Positions 9,360 to 22,547 of a stretch of 43,500 nucleotides of DNA are shown in pieces. The stretch covers positions 1 through 43,500 of IMG/VR virus record IMGVR_UViG_3300044615_000622. One strand, 5' to 3'. This stretch comes from a virus. The position numbers were made by a program, and so were the translations under genes. Positions within the stretch are counted from its first letter, which is position 1; every line of letters begins with the position of its first letter. The notes below the pieces were generated by a model. That model saw only the letters and a list, made by a program, of their open reading frames with translations. It had not been told where the DNA came from and ran no database searches.

Positions 9360-10750
9360 CCATTAGTTCTGAAACCCGGCGCGCTGGCCCTTACGCAGGC
9401 AATGGATCAACCACGGCCTTTGCTTTCGCTTTTAAGGTCTTCACCACAGGCGAGGTGCAGGTTACGCGCACCGCCTCTGGCGTGGACACTGTGTTGACCC
9501 TGACCACGCATTACACGGTCACGCTCAACGCCAATCAGAACCTTAACCCAGGCGGCACGGTGACGATGTTGACGGCCCCTGCGGTGGGCCAGTCGATTAC
9601 GATCACTAGCAATGTGCTCAATCTCCAGCCCACGGCGGTAGCGAACCTTGGAGCGTTCTACCCTGAAGTCATCAACGATAGCCTCGACCGAGCCACGATC
9701 CAGATCCAGCAGCTCGATGAGCGGCTAGACCGGGCGCTGGTTGTGCCTGTGTCGTCGAGCGGCCTGAACACGCAACTGCCTGTGCCTCAAAGCAATGCGC
9801 TCATCGGCTGGAACAGCGGCGCGACGGCGTTGCAGAATGTCAACGGAACGGGCCTTGGCACAACGACTTACCAGTATGTGCATCGTGTGTTGGCCACGGC
9901 GGGCCAGACAGTCTTCACCTTGCCAACGCCTTATGTCCTTAACGCCAGCGCCATCACGGTGTTTGTCAATGGCCTGAAGGTGGAGCAAGGCTCTACGCAG
10001 GATTGGGTGGAGACCAACACGACGACCGTCACGTTTAATGCGGGCCTGACTGTTGGCGATTTGGTGGTGTTTGTCGTCAACGTAATGGCGAGCGCAGTGC
10101 CGTTGGCGGCCTTTCCTGCGGCGAGCGTCAGCGCGTTTGGCGCTGGCCTGGTGGACGATGCAGACGCGGCGGCGGGGCGCACCACGCTTGGCCTTGGCTC
10201 GCTGGCCGTGATCAATTCGCCTTTGCCGATCGCTAACGGTGGCACGGGCGCAACGGCGGCGGGAGCAGCCTTGACGGCGCTAGGCGGGCAGCCATTGGAC
10301 GCGACGCTGACGGCTCTTGCCGGGCTTGCGACGGGCGCGGACAAGCTGGCTTACAGCACGGGCACGGACACTTTCTCCCAGACGGACTTCACTAGCTTTG
10401 CCCGGACGATCCTAGACGACGCCAACGCAGGCGCCGTGCGAACCACGCTTGGCGTCGGCACAGGCGACAGCCCGACCTTCGCAGGCCTGACGATTGCAGA
10501 CGCTGGTAATATCGTTTTGGCTACAGGCACGGGAACGAAGATCGGCACGGCGACGGGGCAGAAGTTGGCTTTCTACAACGCCACTCCTGTTGTGCAACAG
10601 GCCGGGACGGGCGAAACCACAGGCGTTTCAGGTGGCGGCGGTACAAATATTCACGCCAACGCCACTTTTACTGGCAATGTCGGCTCTGCCGCTTACACAA
10701 TCAGCGACGTTGTTAAAGCGTTGAAAAACTTGGGGCTTCTAGCGTCATGA
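9356..10750 (+). CDS. Tail fibre protein with T7-type N-terminal domain
   Basis: The 464-residue protein begins with a domain resembling the T7 tail-fibre N-terminus, which anchors fibres to the tail: an early NGSTTAFAFAFKVF stretch, a Thr-rich beta region and VINDSLDRATIQIQQLDERL near residue 110. The rest is Ala/Gly/Thr-rich beta sequence with the fibre motif PIANGGTGATAAGAALTALG and repeated LDDANAGAVRTTLGVG-type segments, as in trimeric shaft proteins. It likely binds a host surface receptor. Its ATG overlaps the stop of the polyvalent protein by four bases, and its own TGA overlaps the next ATG. No chaperone or lyase domain is evident. Confidence 0.85.
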   Translation: MTISSETRRAGPYAGNGSTTAFAFAFKVFTTGEVQVTRTASGVDTVLTLTTHYTVTLNANQNLNPGGTVTMLTAPAVGQSITITSNVLNLQPTAVANLGAFYPEVINDSLDRATIQIQQLDERLDRALVVPVSSSGLNTQLPVPQSNALIGWNSGATALQNVNGTGLGTTTYQYVHRVLATAGQTVFTLPTPYVLNASAITVFVNGLKVEQGSTQDWVETNTTTVTFNAGLTVGDLVVFVVNVMASAVPLAAFPAASVSAFGAGLVDDADAAAGRTTLGLGSLAVINSPLPIANGGTGATAAGAALTALGGQPLDATLTALAGLATGADKLAYSTGTDTFSQTDFTSFARTILDDANAGAVRTTLGVGTGDSPTFAGLTIADAGNIVLATGTGTKIGTATGQKLAFYNATPVVQQAGTGETTGVSGGGGTNIHANATFTGNVGSAAYTISDVVKALKNLGLLAS

Positions 10751-14459: not shown

Positions 14460-14502
14460 AAAAAAGCCCCCACGGCGTGAACCGTGAGGGCTTCTTCTAT
14501 TT
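14460..14502 (-). terminator. Strong terminator of the leftward membrane-protein gene
   Basis: The stem is 14466-14475 paired with 14482-14491 (GCCCTCACGG / CCGTGGGGGC on the minus strand, one mismatch, 6-base loop), followed by six T at 14465-14460. It sits directly after the stop codon at 14497. The plus-strand side has a weaker T-rich tail (TTCTTCTATTT), so it may stop read-through from both sides. Confidence 0.85.
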
Positions 14503-15198
14503 GACCTTGGCCCAGCGGCGTTGAGCCAACAGGCTTGCGGGACTGGACGCGGTTTGCGCCGGAATTGGTTGGCGTTGCTGGCTGACGGCCCAAAGACCGG
14601 CTACCTTGAGGGCCTCGATCAACACCACAATCGCCTTAAGAACGATGGGCGGCGTCGCAGGCGGCGGGGCTTCGACCGTCGGAAGCGAGGCTAAGCGCTG
14701 ATGCGCCGCCGCTCGCTGCGGCTCGAGACGGGCCAGCTCAGCATTGCGCGCTTCTTGGTAAGCGCGAAGCCGAACTGCCGGGACGTTGGCCGGGAGAACC
14801 GGGACCGCAGCAATTGCCGCTTCGATCCGATTCACCTCGGCCTGCGCCTCAACCCGTGCCGCTTCCGCAGCCAAATGGGGCGCCGCCCGTTCCGTCTCGA
14901 TCATGGTCAGCGCCCGATGCCCGCTGTAGGCATTGAACAGGCTGACCCCGATCAGAAGAACCCCCGCAACCACAACACGAGCCCAAGCCTTGCGGCCAAC
15001 GCTGTGTTCAATCGCGAGCGCTAGAGTGATACCGAGAATCTCGGACGCCAACACTAGCGTAACCAGGACCACCGCGACCAAACCCGCCGCGCTGGCCCAC
15101 CAACCCCAGGCGTTGAGCAGCCCTGAAGCCGCTGCAATCGCCCAGATCGCAACCCCAGCAGCAATGACGCTAGCCGGGACAGAAGGTGCTTTCGACAT
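14497..15198 (-). CDS. Membrane protein with coiled coil, moron-like unit
   Basis: The protein has 233 residues when started at 15198, where AAGGAGT lies six bases upstream; an upstream ATG at 15240 lies within the promoter region and is rejected. Three hydrophobic segments lie at about 10-30, 33-57 and 68-90. An Ala/Glu/Arg-rich coiled coil runs about 95-190 and a fourth hydrophobic segment lies near 205-225. No family is recognised. The gene has its own near-consensus promoter (15231-15259) and terminator, and points against the late genes, the layout of a phage moron. A membrane role such as excluding other phages is only inference. Confidence 0.78.
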   Translation of the reverse strand: MSKAPSVPASVIAAGVAIWAIAAASGLLNAWGWWASAAGLVAVVLVTLVLASEILGITLALAIEHSVGRKAWARVVVAGVLLIGVSLFNAYSGHRALTMIETERAAPHLAAEAARVEAQAEVNRIEAAIAAVPVLPANVPAVRLRAYQEARNAELARLEPQRAAAHQRLASLPTVEAPPPATPPIVLKAIVVLIEALKVAGLWAVSQQRQPIPAQTASSPASLLAQRRWAKVK

Positions 15199-15230
15199 GG
15201 ATTGACTCCTTGCTTGCTGTCGATGGGCGT

Positions 15231-15259
15231 AAGATAGCATCGTGGTACCCTCTTGTCAA
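15231..15259 (-). promoter_or_regulatory. Sigma70-like promoter for the leftward membrane gene
   Basis: On the minus strand TTGACA (15259-15254) is separated by exactly 17 bases from TATCTT (15236-15231). A start near 15224 would give a leader of about 26 bases that contains the AAGGAGT site of the gene starting at 15198. One of two GTGGTACC repeats lies in the spacer, so a bound protein would block the polymerase. Confidence 0.8.
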
Positions 15260-15272
15260 GCACGGTGGTACC
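15242..15272. promoter_or_regulatory. Paired GTGGTACC operator candidate
   Basis: GTGGTACC occurs at 15242-15249 and again at 15265-15272, 23 bp apart (about two helical turns). Each copy contains the palindrome GGTACC. The pair covers the divergent promoter zone between the leftward membrane gene and the rightward ribbon-helix-helix-like gene. Ribbon-helix-helix repressors often bind such spaced short repeats, so autoregulation by the product of 15289-15492 is plausible but inferred. Confidence 0.6.
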
Positions 15273-15288
15273 TGATACGGCTTAATTC

Positions 15289-15492
15289 ATGAAAAAGAAC
15301 CTGAGAGCGCAAAAGACGTTTCGCGTGTCGCCTGAAGAGGAAGCCCTTCTTGAGCGTCAGGCCGAACGCCATGGCGGCAGCGGCGCCGCGATCATTGCCG
15401 GCCTTCGCATGCTAAACGAAGAGGCCTATGATCTCCGCGCGGTATCCTCGCAGGAACTGCTCGCCGAACTGCAAAGGAGGCTCATCACATGA
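15289..15492 (+). CDS. Small ribbon-helix-helix-like protein
   Basis: The protein has 67 residues. The N-terminal KTFRVSPEEEALLERQA followed by a second helix resembles a ribbon-helix-helix DNA-binding fold (a short strand with FRV, then two helices), though the match is by eye only. There is no strong ribosome site before the ATG. The gene diverges from the membrane protein at 14497-15198 and its stop overlaps the next ATG. It could regulate both directions through the GTGGTACC pair upstream. Confidence 0.62.
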   Translation: MKKNLRAQKTFRVSPEEEALLERQAERHGGSGAAIIAGLRMLNEEAYDLRAVSSQELLAELQRRLIT

Positions 15493-15605
15493 ATGTGATT
15501 TGGATCGTTAAACCGCGCCGCGAAGCCATGCCTAGCTGGCTGATCTATGTCGGCGTGTTTGCTGTGATCTTTGGCGTCAGCATCGGCGTGTGGGTGGCGA
15601 GTTAA
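15489..15605 (+). CDS. Single-helix membrane peptide
   Basis: The 38-residue product starts with an ATGA overlap with the preceding stop and has GGAGG within the end of that gene. The basic N-terminus (KPRREAMPS) and a hydrophobic helix (WLIYVGVFAVIFGVSIGVWV) predict one inner-membrane span. Function unknown. Coupling to a regulator gene suggests that it belongs to the same small accessory unit. Confidence 0.6.
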   Translation: MNVIWIVKPRREAMPSWLIYVGVFAVIFGVSIGVWVAS

Positions 15606-15607
15606 TG

Positions 15608-15666
15608 TTATGCGCATCTGAGGCAGTCGCCGGAAACTTAAGGGGCGTAAGCATCGATGCGCATAA
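15608..15666. repeat. 10-bp inverted repeat at a convergent junction
   Basis: TTATGCGCAT (15608-15617) and ATGCGCATAA (15657-15666) are perfect inverted copies 39 bp apart. Each copy also contains the self-palindrome ATGCGCAT. They lie between the rightward unit ending at 15605 and the leftward operon ending at 15710. They may be a protein site or a structure ending both transcripts; there is no T-run, so this is not a standard terminator. Confidence 0.5.
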
Positions 15667-15709
15667 AGCCAATCGTGTGGCGAGTGCGATAGTTAATGTT
15701 TGGCGGCGC

Positions 15710-16102
15710 TCATGGCTGCGGCTCCTGTGCTTTTGCAATCTCCGCCCAAAGCAGGGCGGCGATGAGGGCGCGGGCGGGAGTTAAGCCAATGGCTCCGTGA
15801 TCGCCGATTATAGCGCTCCAATGAGCCGATCCGGCATGGCCTTCAACATCAAGCACGCACCCCGGCAACCGCCGCTCTACCAGCGCCACGGCGGCGTCAA
15901 GCGAGGTTGTAAAATGCGGCAGCGGCTCCCATTCGCAATCGTCCTGCCAGCGGAATTGCCATACGGCGTCTGAGTACCAACGCCTCATACAAAAGGCCTC
16001 ACCAAGATGCAGAGCGATCTCCGCATCCAGGGCTCTATCTTCTCCCTCCCCGCCTTCGATGCGGGCGAGGAGAGCCTGGAGGGTGGGCAGGTTAGGGCTC
16101 AT
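15710..16102 (-). CDS. Phage ABA-sandwich-like hypothetical protein
   Basis: The protein has 130 residues. A Leu/Glu-rich start (LQALLARIEGGEGEDRALDAEIA), a middle with many Trp and Tyr, SLDAAVALVE and TPARALIAALL resemble the small phage ABA-sandwich proteins of unknown function that occur in accessory operons. Its start lies in an 18-bp sequence (16097-16114) repeated at the neighbouring junctions, which carries GGAG eight bases before ATG and the ATGA overlap with the upstream gene. It ends in EPQP, as do the two genes upstream. After its stop, the same junction opens only a six-codon frame (MSAAKH). Confidence 0.75.
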   Translation of the reverse strand: MSPNLPTLQALLARIEGGEGEDRALDAEIALHLGEAFCMRRWYSDAVWQFRWQDDCEWEPLPHFTTSLDAAVALVERRLPGCVLDVEGHAGSAHWSAIIGDHGAIGLTPARALIAALLWAEIAKAQEPQP

Positions 16103-16848
16103 GGCTGCGGCTCCTGGTCAGCTTGTCTCAAAAGCTCGATAAGCCTCACCCTTTGCCATTGGTGCTCGGTTTGCAGATCGGCGGCAGCGTCGGCGGCAGC
16201 TCTGGGGGCAGCGGCGTAGGCTCTGGCGGCGTAGGCGTCGACGGCGGCGTCGTCGGCGGCGTCGGCGGCGAAGTCGTCGCGCTCGGCGGCAGCGGCGGCG
16301 TAGGCGTCGGCGGCGGCGTCGGCGGCTCTGGCGGCGGCGTCGGCGGCGTAAGCTCTGGCGGCAGCGTCGGCGGCAAAGTTGGCGGCGGACCGGGCGGCGG
16401 CGTAGGCGGCGTCGGCGGCGTAAGCTCTGGCGGCAGCGTCGGCGGCGTAGGCTCTGTTGGCAGCGTCGGCGGCAAAGTTGGCGGCGGACCGGGCGGCGGC
16501 GTAGGCGGCGGCGGTGGATTGTCGATTATCCGCGCTTGGATCGTCAATACATCGCCGGGTGGCCTCAATCGCGGCGCGAGGGCGCTTGTCGTTGGGATAA
16601 CGTCCCTCAAACACCGGCAACACCCGCTCGGCGCAATCCGCGGCCCACACCACGACGGCGCGCAGGTACGCAGGGCTGACACGCGCGGCGAGCCAAACGG
16701 CGTGACTGATCTCGCAGCCCGCCTCCAGGGCTTCGGCGATGGTCCACTCGCTGCGCTCCGCGGGCCAGTAGTCAACAAGCCAATTCTTGCCCTCTCGGCA
16801 GGCCATCGGCCAGCTGGTCAGGATTGTGTCTAGGGTCAGTGCGCTCAT
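16099..16848 (-). CDS. Ala-rich repeat protein, Imm-5-like
   Basis: The protein has 249 residues. The N-terminal third is ordinary sequence, with AEALEAGCEISHAVWLA and ATRRCIDDPSADNRQ. Residues about 113-225 are a low-complexity helical array of Ala-Ala-Asp-Ala-Ala with Tyr or Arg at intervals (YAADAAARAYAADAA). A 52-bp exact DNA repeat (16360-16411 and 16459-16510, offset 99 bases or 33 codons) shows growth by in-frame duplication. Such Ala-rich arrays occur in small phage proteins annotated as Imm-5-like; their function is unknown. The gene is coupled to both neighbours through the 18-bp junction repeat. The long glycine-rich frame on the other strand is a shadow of this repeat. Confidence 0.75.
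   Translation of the reverse strand: MSALTLDTILTSWPMACREGKNWLVDYWPAERSEWTIAEALEAGCEISHAVWLAARVSPAYLRAVVVWAADCAERVLPVFEGRYPNDKRPRAAIEATRRCIDDPSADNRQSTAAAYAAARSAANFAADAANRAYAADAAARAYAADAAYAAARSAANFAADAAARAYAADAAARAADAAADAYAAAAAERDDFAADAADDAAVDAYAARAYAAAPRAAADAAADLQTEHQWQRVRLIELLRQADQEPQP
16360..16510. repeat. 52-bp exact direct repeat, offset 99 bp
   Basis: Bases 16360-16411 are identical to 16459-16510. The 99-bp offset keeps the reading frame of the Ala-rich protein, and both copies encode AAARSAANFAADAA. The surrounding sequence is a degenerate GGCGGC-type array, so the copy number is probably unstable. Confidence 0.85.
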
Positions 16849-17222
16849 GGCTGCGGCTCCGCAAGGGCGGCTTCGATCAGTCCGATAGCGTCATCAGCAG
16901 TCGCAAGCCACGCGCCGATCTCCGCAATGCGCGGGCCGCCCGCAGCCTGCACTACGGCTGGGCGCAGCGCCTTGTCGGTCAGCGCAAGCGCCCCCCTCAG
17001 CCGCTCCCGCTCCTCCCGCAGGGCCAGCACCTCGGCGGCGAGGGACGGGGCGGCGGCGATCAGAACAGCGGTCGGCTCTGGCGCGCCCCGGTAGTCGTTC
17101 GGTTGAGCAAAGGCTACTTCGCCATAGCTGGCATGATAGACAGTGCGGCCCTTGGCCTTCCACGGCCCAGGCGTGCTTCTCTCGACCAGCGCCCGCAGTT
17201 TGTCGTTTGATAGGTCAATCAT
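16845..17222 (-). CDS. Ead/Ea22-like protein
   Basis: The protein has 125 residues when started at 17222 (GGAAAG six bases before ATG); longer frames upstream overlap the preceding gene and are rejected. The start (KLRALVERSTPGPWKAKGRTVYH) matches the pattern of Ead/Ea22-like phage proteins, small early accessory proteins of unclear role. The APSLAAEVLALREERERLRGALA stretch that follows is also usual in them. The gene overlaps the upstream stop and is joined downstream by the 18-bp junction repeat, ending in EPQP. Confidence 0.75.
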   Translation of the reverse strand: MIDLSNDKLRALVERSTPGPWKAKGRTVYHASYGEVAFAQPNDYRGAPEPTAVLIAAAPSLAAEVLALREERERLRGALALTDKALRPAVVQAAGGPRIAEIGAWLATADDAIGLIEAALAEPQP

Positions 17223-18020: not shown

Positions 18021-18467
18021 TCACCTTACCACCGATGATCGCAAAAGCAACCACTCTTGTAGCTTTTTTTGTGCATCGTCCAAGCCATGGCCAATGATGA
18101 CTGTGTGGCCAACGCTGGCAAGGTAGGCGTGCCAATCGGCCTGCACTGCTGACACGACCCCGCCATCGGCGCGCTTCATCTCGACCCACAAGCACCAAGC
18201 GGGAACGAAAAGGTCAGGTACGCCAGCGCTGACGCCTTCGACCTTAAGCCTTGCGCCTGTCGTGCGGCTTCGCGCTTCCCCATTGGGAATGGCAAAGATC
18301 CGCACTGGTTTGTGAGTCTGGCGAAACCAACTCACGAACTCGCGTTGCTCGACATGCTCAGAACGCGCGGCGACTTTGCGCCCATTGGCGATCGACAACG
18401 CGGAAGAAGCGGCTTTCTTGGCGGTATGTGATCGACGTCGGCGCGGGGGCAATTTGTAACTCCTCAT
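18021..18467 (-). CDS. VRR-NUC domain nuclease
   Basis: The frame encodes 148 residues from the ATG at 18467, but the true start is uncertain because this would overlap the helicase by 110 bases and has no good ribosome site; a TTG within the overlap is an alternative. The core has the VRR-NUC pattern of the PD-(D/E)XK superfamily: an N-terminal Glu (EQREFVSWF), IPNGEARS, GVPDLFVP with the catalytic Asp, EMK, and a later Gln (QADW). VRR-NUC enzymes cut branched DNA, such as Holliday junctions. Next to the helicase and nuclease genes it likely resolves replication or recombination intermediates before packaging. Confidence 0.88.
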   Translation of the reverse strand: MRSYKLPPRRRRSHTAKKAASSALSIANGRKVAARSEHVEQREFVSWFRQTHKPVRIFAIPNGEARSRTTGARLKVEGVSAGVPDLFVPAWCLWVEMKRADGGVVSAVQADWHAYLASVGHTVIIGHGLDDAQKKLQEWLLLRSSVVR

Positions 18468-19953
18468 AAACCTGATCTTCGTTCTGACCTTTTGATATGT
18501 TCAAGGCGCCTAGGATCTTTGTCAGCTTTTCCCACGCACGATGCGACGCCGCCCCGCCATGCCACACGGTAAAATACTCAGTTACAATAGGGTCAGTGTA
18601 GCTCGCGGGATAGTACCGCACCCGCAACATGTCCTGCCCATTGTTATGGATATCCCACCGCCAGCTGGCGACTTTCATCTCACGGCCTAAAGCCGCTTCA
18701 TCCGACATGACTGGCGCAATCTTAAGCGTCAGGTCCGCAGGCTTAGGCGGCGGAAACTTAAACCCACACTTGGGACATTCCCTCACTGCCGTGTGGCATA
18801 GCGTAAAGCATACCGGGCAGGCCTTGACCGGCGCTTCACCGCCTTCTGTTTTCTTGGGCCGCTTAACGACCGGATCATCAAAAAAGCCATGCGTGTAGGT
18901 CAGCCCGGCAAAGTCCAGAACCAGGCAATAGTCCACATTGTCTTTCAGCCTAGTCCCGCGCCCCAGCATCTGCACATAGAGCGAGGTCGAAAGGGTAGGG
19001 CGGCAGCAGGCGATCACGTCCACGTTAGGCGCGTCAAAACCAGTCGTTAGCACATTCGCGTTTGTCAGCGCCCTAATCTCGCCAGCCTTGAACGCGCGGA
19101 TAATCTCTTCCCGCTCCTTGGCTGGCGTGGTCCCGACAATCGTTTCCGCGATCACGTCTTTTTCCCGCAGCGCATCCCGCATTGCAAAGGCATGGCTGAC
19201 GCCGACGCAAAACACCAGCCAGCTTTGGCGCTGATAAGCCTTTTCGACAATCTCCTCAGCGACAGATTTGTTCAGCGCTTCCTTGTTAACAGCCGCGTCA
19301 AGGTCCGCCTCTACATATTCCCCGCCTTTCTTCTTGACGCCCGCAAGGTCAAATTGCGTGGCCGTAGCCAGCGAGCGCAAGGGCGCAAGATAGCCCTGCT
19401 TCACTAGATCCATCACTCCGATCGGCTCAAGCAGATCCGTGAAGAGCGCAGGCGCATCCGTGATGTAACCATGGCCCAGCCGGTAAGGCGTGGCCGTCAA
19501 GCCGATCACTTTGAGGTCTGGCGTCCTAGCCGTCAGCTGCGCGATCAACCGCCGATAATGGCCGTCCGCCGTGTGATTAATGCGGTGGGCTTCATCGATA
19601 ATCACGATGTCCACGCGGCCCAGCAGGTCCACTTTTTTAGCGACACTCTGAATGCCAGCAAACGTGATCGACTGCCCCGCGTCGCGTTGCCTAAGCCCCG
19701 CTGAATAGACGCCCAGCGGCGCATCTGGCCAGTGCTGGCGCATCTTCTCGGCGTTCTGCTCGATCAACTCCTTGACGTGAGTAAGCATAAGAATGCGCTG
19801 ATCGGGGTAGGCCATCACCACCAACCGACAAAACTCGGCGATGATGTGGCTCTTCCCCGCGCCCGTCGGCAGCACCAAGCAAGGGTGGCCGTCGTGGTGC
19901 TGGAAGTACTCGAACAGCATGTCCAGCGCGCGTTGTTGATACTCTCTGAGCAT
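18358..19953 (-). CDS. DEAD/DEAH-box superfamily 2 DNA helicase
   Basis: The protein has 531 residues. It has an N-terminal Q-like motif (REYQQRAL), Walker A PTGAGKS at 29-35, DEAH at 120-123, GLTATPYR (motif III region), and a second RecA fold with TTGFDAPNVD and QMLGRGTR (motif VI). A zinc-ribbon-like pair (CPVC, then CPKC) sits near residues 385-410. It resembles RadD/type III restriction-like SF2 helicases common in phage replication blocks, and probably unwinds forks or branched DNA. It lies 15 bases downstream of the nuclease gene and overlaps the VRR-NUC gene. Confidence 0.93.
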   Translation of the reverse strand: MLREYQQRALDMLFEYFQHHDGHPCLVLPTGAGKSHIIAEFCRLVVMAYPDQRILMLTHVKELIEQNAEKMRQHWPDAPLGVYSAGLRQRDAGQSITFAGIQSVAKKVDLLGRVDIVIIDEAHRINHTADGHYRRLIAQLTARTPDLKVIGLTATPYRLGHGYITDAPALFTDLLEPIGVMDLVKQGYLAPLRSLATATQFDLAGVKKKGGEYVEADLDAAVNKEALNKSVAEEIVEKAYQRQSWLVFCVGVSHAFAMRDALREKDVIAETIVGTTPAKEREEIIRAFKAGEIRALTNANVLTTGFDAPNVDVIACCRPTLSTSLYVQMLGRGTRLKDNVDYCLVLDFAGLTYTHGFFDDPVVKRPKKTEGGEAPVKACPVCFTLCHTAVRECPKCGFKFPPPKPADLTLKIAPVMSDEAALGREMKVASWRWDIHNNGQDMLRVRYYPASYTDPIVTEYFTVWHGGAASHRAWEKLTKILGALNISKGQNEDQVYEELQIAPAPTSITYRQESRFFRVVDRQWAQSRRAF

Positions 19954-19968
19954 TGGTCATCTCCCGGA

Positions 19969-20928
19969 TCAGAACGGCACCCAATGCTTGTCGATCAGCT
20001 CCTTCGACGACACATGGCCATCGCCGTTCATGACCTTCTGGCCGTCGATCATGTAGGCCCCGGTCACCCCGTCTGGGCTATCCAGCATTGTCCATGGCGT
20101 CAGGTCCGGGTGGATCACATGCTTGGGGCAACCCTCAATTTGCGCTTCAACGGGGATCTCTGAATCCCACACGGCGCAATGGCTTGTGCCATCTGTCCGC
20201 GCCGTGTAGTGCGCGCATGTGCGGCAATTGACCTCTTTCGTCAGCCCAGACACATGGCAAAAGTGAAAGCCGGGGCAGCTTTTACATTGCCACCAAGCCG
20301 CGCTGGCCTGATACATAGGCTCGGGCATATGATCGGAGCAGGACACCCTTAGGCCCCGCGCAATGGCGTTCTCCGCCACCAGTCGATCATACTTCACGCG
20401 CTCGAAATAGTAACGGTCATCGTCCTTGCAGATCGCCACATACAGCGCCCGCTCCAAGCCCGTCGCGTGCATGTAGACCTGCATCTGCACGTAGTGTTCT
20501 GGCTTGACCGTCTCGACGCCTTGTTTTGTCAGCGTGGTGAAGCTCGCTTTGTTGTGCGTCTTGAACTCGGCCACATGCTGCTTCGTTGGGGCCTCAGGCA
20601 CGCCAAGGACAATGGCGTCAATGGTCCCCGCAACATGGCCTTCGATCGCCACCCGCGCCTGCTCTGACACAATCTCAATTCCCGCCATCTGGAGATCCTT
20701 GAGGATCGTCTCTTCCTCGCGTTGGCCGCGCCGGAAAATGCGCAACACGCGCCCTTCAAAGCTGCGTGGTGCGGCCCAGCGAAAGCTAAGCCACAACCAT
20801 CGGTCGCAAGGGTGTCCAAGCATGGACGCCCCAAGATGGGGGCGAGGCTCGCGCCCCGCCTCCTCTTGTTGATGGGCCTTGTCGATCAGCGCCGCCAGAT
20901 CATTCTGGGCTTCGGGAAGGGCGCTCAT
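19969..20928 (-). CDS. PD-(D/E)XK nuclease (Cas4/RecB-like)
   Basis: The protein has 319 residues. The start at 20928 forms an ATGA overlap with the upstream stop and has GGAAG eight bases away, so it is preferred over the ATG at 20943. Motifs of the superfamily are visible: GHPCDRWLWLSF near the N-terminus, GTIDAI with the metal-binding Asp, EFKTHN (E-x-K) and HYVQMQVYMHATGL with the Gln-x3-Tyr of RecB-type nucleases. Cysteine pairs follow (CKSCPGFHFC and CRTCAH), so an iron-sulphur or zinc site is possible. It probably acts as the exonuclease partner of the adjacent RecA-like ATPase in recombination. Confidence 0.88.
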   Translation of the reverse strand: MSALPEAQNDLAALIDKAHQQEEAGREPRPHLGASMLGHPCDRWLWLSFRWAAPRSFEGRVLRIFRRGQREEETILKDLQMAGIEIVSEQARVAIEGHVAGTIDAIVLGVPEAPTKQHVAEFKTHNKASFTTLTKQGVETVKPEHYVQMQVYMHATGLERALYVAICKDDDRYYFERVKYDRLVAENAIARGLRVSCSDHMPEPMYQASAAWWQCKSCPGFHFCHVSGLTKEVNCRTCAHYTARTDGTSHCAVWDSEIPVEAQIEGCPKHVIHPDLTPWTMLDSPDGVTGAYMIDGQKVMNGDGHVSSKELIDKHWVPF

Positions 20929-21446
20929 GACCGCTTCTTCCATGGCGGGGTTTGGCCTGACAGCGCTTGGCTTGTCGCCGCGCCGGGCTGTGCGGCGGAC
21001 TGTGCGGCGGACTGTGCGGACGGTTGCGGGCTAAACGCAGTGGCTCGCGCGTCAAAGGCCTTCCATCCCTTGACATCATTGCTGGCTTTGTACTGCCCAT
21101 CGGCAGGGCGGATCTCCAGCTTGATTTCGCACGTCCCGCCGATTAGTTGATCGGTATCGGAAATGCGCTCCAGCCCGATCGCCATCATGAGCTGGCCCAG
21201 CTGCTGGCGGCCAATCTGCTCGGCTTTGGCCGATGGATTGGAGATATTGAGGTTGCCATAGATCACCCGGCCTTGGTGCGTCGGGCCGATGATGTCGTAT
21301 CTGACAGCGAGGTATTGGCCCGTGTTGGCCTTGTTTGGCCGGGCCTCAACCGCCGCCACCCGCGCCTGATACCAGCCGGGGGGCAGAGGATCGTAGGACG
21401 TGTCAAGGGCCTCGGGCAGGTCATCAAGGGAAAAATCAAGCTTCAT
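20925..21446 (-). CDS. DUF669-like protein
   Basis: The protein has 173 residues. PLPPGWYQARV near the N-terminus, GQYLAVRYDIIGP, and VIYGNLNISNPSAKAEQIGRQ near the middle are hallmarks of the DUF669 family, which accompanies Sak4-type ATPases in phages and is suspected of single-stranded DNA binding. The C-terminus is a Ser/Ala/Gln repeat tail (QSAAQSAAQPG). AAGGAGACC precedes the ATG. It sits between the nuclease and the ATPase pair in the leftward operon. Confidence 0.82.
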   Translation of the reverse strand: MKLDFSLDDLPEALDTSYDPLPPGWYQARVAAVEARPNKANTGQYLAVRYDIIGPTHQGRVIYGNLNISNPSAKAEQIGRQQLGQLMMAIGLERISDTDQLIGGTCEIKLEIRPADGQYKASNDVKGWKAFDARATAFSPQPSAQSAAQSAAQPGAATSQALSGQTPPWKKRS

Positions 21447-21473: not shown

Positions 21474-21818
21474 TTAAAAGTCTGCGCGGATGGTAAAGGT
21501 CGGGCGGCCTGGCGTGATGGTGATCGCCGGGAGCAGGGGTTTCGTGATCTTAGATGCAGCGGCGTCCCAGATCTTCTTGTTCACCTCAGGCTTCCACCGA
21601 AACAACGTGGCGAGGTGATCGGTCAGGCCATTGGCCTCGGCCAAAGCCTGAAGCTTGTCACCGTCGATCTTCCAGTTGTCGCGCTCGGCGATGCGCACCG
21701 TGTAACCGGCCCATTCGGTTTGGCCTTTGGCAATCATGGCGTCTTCGATCTTCCGCCGCTTCTCAATAGCGGCAAGCTCGGCTTCTTTGGCTTCAAGCCA
21801 TTCGGCGGCGAGGTTCAC
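21474..21818 (-). CDS. Conserved phage hypothetical protein of the Sak4 block
   Basis: The protein has 114 residues. It starts at a GTG in a GTGA overlap with the ATPase stop, with GGGGGTG upstream. A helical N-terminus (EAKEAELAAIEKRRKIED) precedes a beta-rich part with YTVRIAERDNWKIDGDKL. Genes of this kind recur between DUF669 and RecA-like ATPase genes in many phages, so a recombination accessory role is likely, but no activity is known to me. Confidence 0.75.
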   Translation of the reverse strand: MNLAAEWLEAKEAELAAIEKRRKIEDAMIAKGQTEWAGYTVRIAERDNWKIDGDKLQALAEANGLTDHLATLFRWKPEVNKKIWDAAASKITKPLLPAITITPGRPTFTIRADF

Positions 21819-22486
21819 GACGCACCCCCTTGTATCTTCGCAATGATTTGCCCCAAATCAGCCGGTTCCCACGGTGCAAGCTGGCCAGAGCGATCCTTAG
21901 CCAGCCACAGCCCGTCGCTGTCGCACATCAGCGCCCGCTGCGGCACGCCATCTGCGTCCCTCTCCACACGCAAAGCCAGCACTTCATCAAAGAAGTAGGG
22001 CAAAGCTTGGCCGGTCTTGTTGCCGGGCATGCTAGGGCTGTACAGCATGCGGCCCATCTCATCGGCTTGCTTCTCAAGCTTGGCCGTCATGTAAACGTGC
22101 TTACCCGGAAGATCGCGGAAAGCGCGGATCACTTCGGTCATCGTGTCCTGCATGGCGCCATAGGCTTGGCGCGGGTCTTTGGCCACGCGCTTTTCGGCAT
22201 TCAGCACGACTTCAGCGATCTCGCTGATCGAGTCGATGGCCACGGACTGGAAATCTTGATCCGATTGCAGCCATGCCAAGGCCTCCCTGAGATCATTCAT
22301 GTTGCCGATCTCAAGGTAGGGCAGGTCAGCGCCAGCCACTGACAGCAACCCGCCTTCCGCTGATAGGGTAACAGGGTTTGGAAGGGTTGGAATCAGCGAC
22401 GTCTTGCCAGCGCCAGCCTGTCCGTAAACAAGCAGTTTCACGCCATCACGGGCAATCGCGCCCGTGCGTTTGAGGGTAATAGCCAT
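21815..22486 (-). CDS. RecA-like recombination ATPase, Sak4 type
   Basis: The protein has 223 residues from the ATG at 22486 (MAITLKRTG); a longer frame from 22519 is possible. Walker A is GQAGAGKTS near residue 26, and Walker B is VAIDSISE. The DLPGKHVYMTAKLEKQ and later YFFDEVLALRVE segments are typical of the short RecA-like ATPases called Sak4, single-strand annealing or recombination proteins of phages. It is the first gene of the leftward early operon, next to the divergent control region. Confidence 0.88.
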   Translation of the reverse strand: MAITLKRTGAIARDGVKLLVYGQAGAGKTSLIPTLPNPVTLSAEGGLLSVAGADLPYLEIGNMNDLREALAWLQSDQDFQSVAIDSISEIAEVVLNAEKRVAKDPRQAYGAMQDTMTEVIRAFRDLPGKHVYMTAKLEKQADEMGRMLYSPSMPGNKTGQALPYFFDEVLALRVERDADGVPQRALMCDSDGLWLAKDRSGQLAPWEPADLGQIIAKIQGGAS

Positions 22487-22547
22487 GGTGTTTGGCCTTT
22501 CGTTTGCCCCTTCGGCCAATCCGGTCGGGCAAAGCGACCTTGCGTGT

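Follow-up and report, generated by a model that had tools for sequence, protein, structure and literature searches.

Comparison with related phages supports, at the level of sequence history, the view that an 18-nucleotide joint repeated between small accessory genes marks positions at which genes were exchanged in the past. The window (the whole 43.5 kb stretch of DNA analysed here) comes from an IMG/VR virus record encoding a podovirus-type portal and capsid (Head-tail_con, GP7), and the gene array in question occupies the distal end of an operon of this uncultured podovirus-like phage which, judging from its gene content, is probably early. The 18-mer, GGAGCCGCAGCCATGAGC, is present as three exact minus-strand copies, all lying within 1.15 kb and at exactly the coordinates given in the original prediction. 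A fourth copy is absent from the window even when three mismatches are allowed (0.08 expected from shuffled sequence). Translation confirms that each copy supplies the C-terminal PQP of one gene, its stop, a GGAG site and the next start: the upstream frame ends in ...EPQP*, and the following gene begins at an overlapping ATGA, the spacer being CCGCAGCC. The last copy opens a six-codon frame only, also as anticipated. The features of the array and its flanks are as follows, other records being designated by L numbers.

16843..16860, minus strand: joint copy 1, GGAGCCGCAGCCATGAGC; end of the Ead-like gene (EPQP*), ribosome-binding site (RBS) and start of the Imm5-like gene
16097..16114, minus strand: joint copy 2; end of the Imm5-like gene, RBS and start of the ABA-like gene
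15708..15725, minus strand: joint copy 3; end of the ABA-like gene, opening only the six-codon frame
16845..17222, minus strand: cassette gene 1 (Ead-like), P0003, 125 aa; starts at a ATGATTGA overlap with the preceding gene
16099..16848, minus strand: cassette gene 2, P0002, 249 aa; Imm5_like domain plus Ala-rich in-frame repeats
15710..16102, minus strand: cassette gene 3 ("ABA-like"), P0001, 130 aa; relatives in several other records
15693..15713, minus strand: six-codon frame MSAAKH*; deletion scar, the beginning of a lost small ORF running directly into the conserved 3' flank
14497..15703, minus strand: conserved 3' flank, beginning CCAAACATTAACTATCGC; common to L007, L047, L054, L057 and L058
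17215..17430, minus strand: MPDIALCQGG... gene, the last common gene before the array; 3' end altered in L054 and L007
17524..17545, minus strand: second translational joint, TGCGGGGGATGGGAATGACTGA; single in the window

The three cassette genes had been assigned to unrelated families. Their proteins indeed show no sequence resemblance to one another, but the labels Ead-like and ABA-sandwich-like find no support in Pfam or PHROGs; P0003 weakly matches PHROGs with no assigned function. The middle gene alone has a Pfam match (Imm5_like, PF21805, 8e-11), the Ala-rich half of its protein being encoded by GC-rich in-frame repeats at window 16165-16517. Upstream, the minus-strand operon runs in the order Sak4-like annealase, DUF7173, DUF669/SSB-like protein, Cas4-type exonuclease, helicase, VRR-NUC-like protein (an assignment that falls under the Pfam cut-off), small genes and array. 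It thus holds a Sak4-type annealase with an SSB and an exonuclease nearby (PHROG 124, 6015, 1990), as in a phage single-strand-annealing module, and no integrase was found among the window ORFs scanned.

21815..22519, minus strand: Sak4-like single-strand annealing protein (PHROG 124, 1.3e-53), same operon
20925..21446, minus strand: DUF669/phage SSB-like protein, same operon
19969..20943, minus strand: Cas4-domain/YqaJ-type exonuclease, same operon
18358..19953, minus strand: SF2 helicase, conserved upstream flank and query for relatives

The three-joint arrangement is very probably real. Chance, base composition or an artefact of repeat assembly would be a most improbable explanation. In its favour, most of the 47 exact 18-mer matches among 2.9 million viral contigs are single and unrelated, which indicates that the motif arises by chance in GC-rich phages; these 47 matches (AGC), with 33 further ones (ACC), were rejected as relatives, being mostly single chance joints in unrelated GC-rich phages. 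Three identical consecutive joints are another matter, since no pair among 445 coupled SD-plus-ATGA joint pairs, counted within each of 20 control loci chosen without regard to the motif, agrees over 18 nt with two mismatches or fewer. The array also recurs in two other records, making an assembly accident unlikely: L051, from another metagenome, is 99.88% identical to the window array over 2.5 kb without gaps, and L052 is 100% identical as far as the Ala-rich repeats.

Relatives were retrieved using three queries, namely the helicase, the gene downstream and the ABA-like protein. They comprise a close group (L007, L047, L051, L054/L056, L057 and L058) and a distant one of ~70% identity (L062-L069). 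The flanks can be aligned well across the close group, in which the array is what differs; the conserved 3' block sets in at window 15703-15715, coinciding with the last joint copy. With up to two mismatches, the joint is found five times in L007, twice each in L054/L056 and L057, and once each in L047, L058 and L074. Among the joint-bearing relatives with ~86-95% DNA identity (L007, L054/L056, L057, L047 and L058) it is attached to different genes, and the 18-mer search proposed with the original prediction accordingly found different genes between copies. The gene chains are given below, J standing for a joint with at most two mismatches; the methylase assignments rest on Pfam.

Window: MPDIALC, Ead-like J Imm5-like J ABA J MSAAKH
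L007, first part: truncated MPDIALC fused to ABA tail J MSRPTCETC, fused scar of LYPDHRR tail J MSRNDML
L007, continued after MSRNDML: J LYPDHRR J N6-methylase J MSAALGLC, more small genes, MTGAKH
L054: MPDIALC J LYPDHRR J MRAAIALC
L057: inserted gene, MPDIALC, MTDLTT J MSGTTEQ, three genes, ABA J MTAALGLC
L058: other genes, PPGVPPW gene J MSAAMGLC scar, C5-methylase
L047: two-gene insert (no Pfam match), MPDIALC, MTDLSN, ABA J MSAAKH

The ~70% relatives also differ in gene content, yet the joint is missing from them, and no repeated joint of their own was found in the two array regions scanned (L062, L066). Cultured relatives are remote, with a single weak match to the ABA protein (40%) and a best helicase match of 49%, while host genomes hold seven distant ABA relatives, mostly in Hyphomicrobiales/Rhizobiaceae. 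The LYPDHRR and Imm5-like cassettes were found in no carrier beyond the known relatives.

Several genes behave as cassettes. The LYPDHRR gene is homologous from joint to joint between L007 (5769-5972) and L054 (7558-7761), with unrelated neighbours on both sides. The small ORF MSAALGLC... starts at the joint after the methylase in L007, after LYPDHRR in L054, after ABA in L057 and after yet another gene in L058. Conversely, the ABA tail plus joint is followed by MSAAKH in the window and L047, by MTAALGLC in L057 and, in L074, by MTAADLNRAR ahead of an integrase gene; in L007 a 25-bp remnant of the tail plus joint precedes MSRPTCETC. The L074 match is 99.6% identical over 269 bp, with adjoining genes ~74% identical to those of the window; its junction is situated at the end of a contig and may result from misjoining, a caution unnecessary for the L007 junction, which sits inside its contig. 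The protein ends are equally informative. The MPDIALC protein terminates in RGAFPQEPQP in L054, where its 3' end is replaced by the joint (QEPQP*), and in RGASQPNGKKTND or RGASQLKARGDQ elsewhere; L007 has the gene fused to the ABA tail and joint. No EPQP tail is present on the ABA protein from L076. The tail is therefore part of the joint and not of the gene. L057 and L083 have a 1083-bp block in common (98.6% identity), beginning 1 bp past the joint in L057, and show no detectable relatedness outside it. Positions 1-5000 of L083, an integrase-bearing record, hold this block together with two pieces of the ABA gene, and L083 looks like a prophage pool of the same cassettes.

The empty slot that had been proposed after the last copy proved to be a deletion scar. 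The window and L047 read ATGAGCGCCGCCAAACATTAAC where L057 reads ATGACCGCCGCTCTTGGCC...GTAAGCGCCCCAAACATTAAC, from which it follows that MSAAKH* is the start of a 24-codon ORF joined by deletion to the conserved flank. This ORF is kept at the same joint by four relatives, whole in L007, L054 and L057 and truncated in L058. A similar scar, MTGAKH, occurs at a different joint in L007. Joint duplication, for its part, is not peculiar to the 18-mer but accompanies insertion, given that the 22-bp joint TGCGGGGGATGGGAATGACTGA, single in the other relatives, is duplicated exactly in L057 (12475-12496 and 12779-12800), where it flanks the inserted gene.

Homology breakpoints were collected from seven arrays and fall into 79 clusters. 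Joint copies, which make up 3.6% of the length, account for 18 of these (binomial p=4e-10); other gene starts, making up 7.3%, account for 17 (p=5e-5), and the remaining 44 are intragenic; 14 of 15 joint copies are breakpoints as opposed to 13 of 30 other gene starts (Fisher p=0.0013), and 12 of 84 breakpoints fall at the joint in both partners against 0.13 in the null, all p-values being indicative only because the same event recurs across pairs and an identical 18-mer attracts the ends of local alignments. The intragenic clusters imply that joints are preferred, not required, and ordinary selection for whole genes would give the enrichment at other gene starts. Several cassettes are, moreover, joined by sequences other than the 18-mer, and the gene fusions and truncations indicate that illegitimate events also occur. 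The predicted gene swapping at the joint thus stands, resting on the different genes between copies, the homologous cassettes with different neighbours and the breaks of homology at the joint, whereas homologous recombination at the 18-mer as its route is weakened by the intragenic breakpoints, the other joining sequences, the fusions and truncations, and the jointless ~70% relatives.

In this context, we regard it as rather likely that recombination has propagated the 18-mer as a translational joint within a hypervariable stretch of cassettes with which the early operon ends. A gene would be gained through an event that exits the array and comes back into it where the stop/RBS/start region offers a short match. 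The only products retained would be those in which the incoming gene acquires a stop and the RBS and start of its successor stay intact, and the joint sequence would hence be duplicated with each insertion. Once several copies were present, pairing between them could swap or delete whole genes, in frame and coupled, most plausibly through single-strand annealing that relies on the phage-encoded Sak4, SSB and exonuclease. Slots would decay through separate microhomology deletions, one of which may have left the six-codon frame. For RecA-type pairing, 18 bp is short. We infer the enzyme, the order of the steps and joint-joint pairing as the driver of exchange, and the action of Sak4 at the joint is likewise presumed; the data fit a scheme in which genes enter by recombination at short matches, selection keeps the coupling intact, and copies of the joint then exchange with one another. 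Phage annealing proteins have been reported to recombine short, diverged sequences (PMC3945230, PMC8093625), and Sak4 with its SSB anneals and recombineers, its recombination in vivo being weak (PMC5928155). A stronger version, which makes the joint the functional element of a cassette system working without an integrase, with near-identical joints kept as annealing handles for Sak4-based, in-frame and coupled exchange of accessory genes with other phages and prophages, is conceivable but unlikely.

One competitor is pure illegitimate recombination with selection, whereby insertions would be random, in-frame coupled survivors would be retained, and the joint would be copied without copies ever pairing. 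The fusions, truncated tails and short-match scars, the many intragenic breakpoints and the different joint duplicated around the L057 insert all count in its favour. It does not easily explain how one cassette comes to be flanked on either side by the same joint in two phages whose neighbouring genes differ, nor why 14 of 15 joints are breakpoints, and we hold it to be possible but doubtful.

Selection on a start-associated element, keeping the sequence for its level of translational coupling or for the binding of a regulator while gene turnover reflects ordinary phage mosaicism, is in our judgment improbable. In its favour, the Shine-Dalgarno (SD) sequence, stop and start within the joint are spaced in the ordinary way, Cluster K mycobacteriophages and Cluster EF Microbacterium phages are known to carry repeated start-associated sequences, and several GGAGCCGCAGCCRTGA copies occur at gene starts in L096 and L102. 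Yet the 18-mer is missing from all other gene starts of the window, early genes of the same operon included, and the identity extends to the silent positions of the PQP codons and to the non-SD spacer. The joint also folds no better than shuffles (z-scores -0.5 to 0.5), and homologous genes can have quite different joints in relatives, as before the ABA gene in L047 and the window. Those z-scores, the position of the joint within coding sequence and the lack of an integrase among the scanned window ORFs likewise leave an integron-like or other site-specific cassette system with a practically negligible probability, despite the promoterless gene array with its repeated joint and an integrase gene near array genes in L074 and L083; with palindrome and recombinase both absent, an integron-like site was rejected.

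Repeated starts were also seen elsewhere. L096, an unrelated phage with 52% GC, carries four GGAGCCGCAGCCATGA-type starts in 0.7 kb (minus strand, 11803, 11957, 12309 and 12471), two of them within a longer repeat, AACCGAAGAGGAGCCGCAGCCATGA, and not all of its upstream genes overlap. In L102, a distant relative, two copies of AAGGAGCCGCAGCC(A/G)TGA (9754-9778 and 10053-10077), 299 bp apart, bound one small gene. Two prophage-like loci have repeats of their own: the RBS/start TAAGGAAGATCGAAATGG, exact twice in L077 (10639 and 11407), and AGAAGGAGGCAA..ATG, three times in L125 (4767, 5053 and 5893). The multi-copy GGAGCCGCAGCCRTGA starts that L096 and L102 have of their own suggest that accessory arrays may contain repeated starts more often than has been described.

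It is an old question whether phage mosaicism stems from illegitimate joining at random, with selection sorting the products, or from recombination that takes place at short conserved sequences on boundaries. With the same joint at different genes in several relatives, a joint-bounded cassette and base-level scars, the two views become testable in one small locus. The array likely carries accessory genes directed against host functions, such as the methylases (L007, L058) and the immunity-like protein of the window, and the joint offers a handle for finding more of them.

Among known systems, the start-associated sequences (SAS) of Cluster K mycobacteriophages (PMC3203893), also present in Cluster EF Microbacterium phages (PMC7302621), have been read as translational elements. 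They are 13 bp long (GGGATAGGAGCCC), end before the start codon, and are repeated 11-19 times across the non-structural half of the genome, frequently preceded by an inverted repeat. Like them, the joint is a short, asymmetric, SD-containing repeat of one orientation, confined to one phage group and placed just upstream of several unrelated small non-structural genes, here in three exact copies. Unlike them, it takes in the stop, the RBS and the start together and coincides with breakpoints of gene exchange; it is restricted to a single array, with three copies in 1.15 kb and none elsewhere instead of at least 10 across the non-structural half. It matches neither GGGATAGGAGCCC nor the EF variant GGGAAAGGACCCC, having only GGAGCC in common with the Cluster K form. 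The lambdoid nin region (Kroger and Hobom 1982, as cited in PMC8022706) resembles the array in that the early operon closes with small accessory genes, which vary between phages and are linked by ATGA stop/start overlaps. No nin homologues were found among the array genes in Pfam/PHROGs, the operon having Sak4, DUF669, Cas4 and helicase instead, and the lambda nin joints were rejected as an identical case, their sequences being only loosely alike with no exact repeat. Integron cassettes also form a swappable promoterless array, but with an IntI-type integrase and a palindromic attC, of which the scanned window ORFs and the fold z-scores give no sign. The mobile regulatory cassettes of T4-type phages (Arbiol 2010, Comeau 2014, cited in PMC4503421) are reportedly PeSLs, stem-loops combining promoter and terminator. 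PeSLs and the joint are alike as repeated regulatory sequences thought to allow the shuffling of small genes by recombination; the joint differs in being translational, inside an operon and without evident structure, the genes overlapping by 4 bp with no stable fold relative to shuffles in place of an early promoter and terminator stem-loop. The nearest described repeat is thus the SAS, the nearest gene arrangement the nin region and the nearest idea the T4 PeSLs, the joint departing from each in a defining feature.
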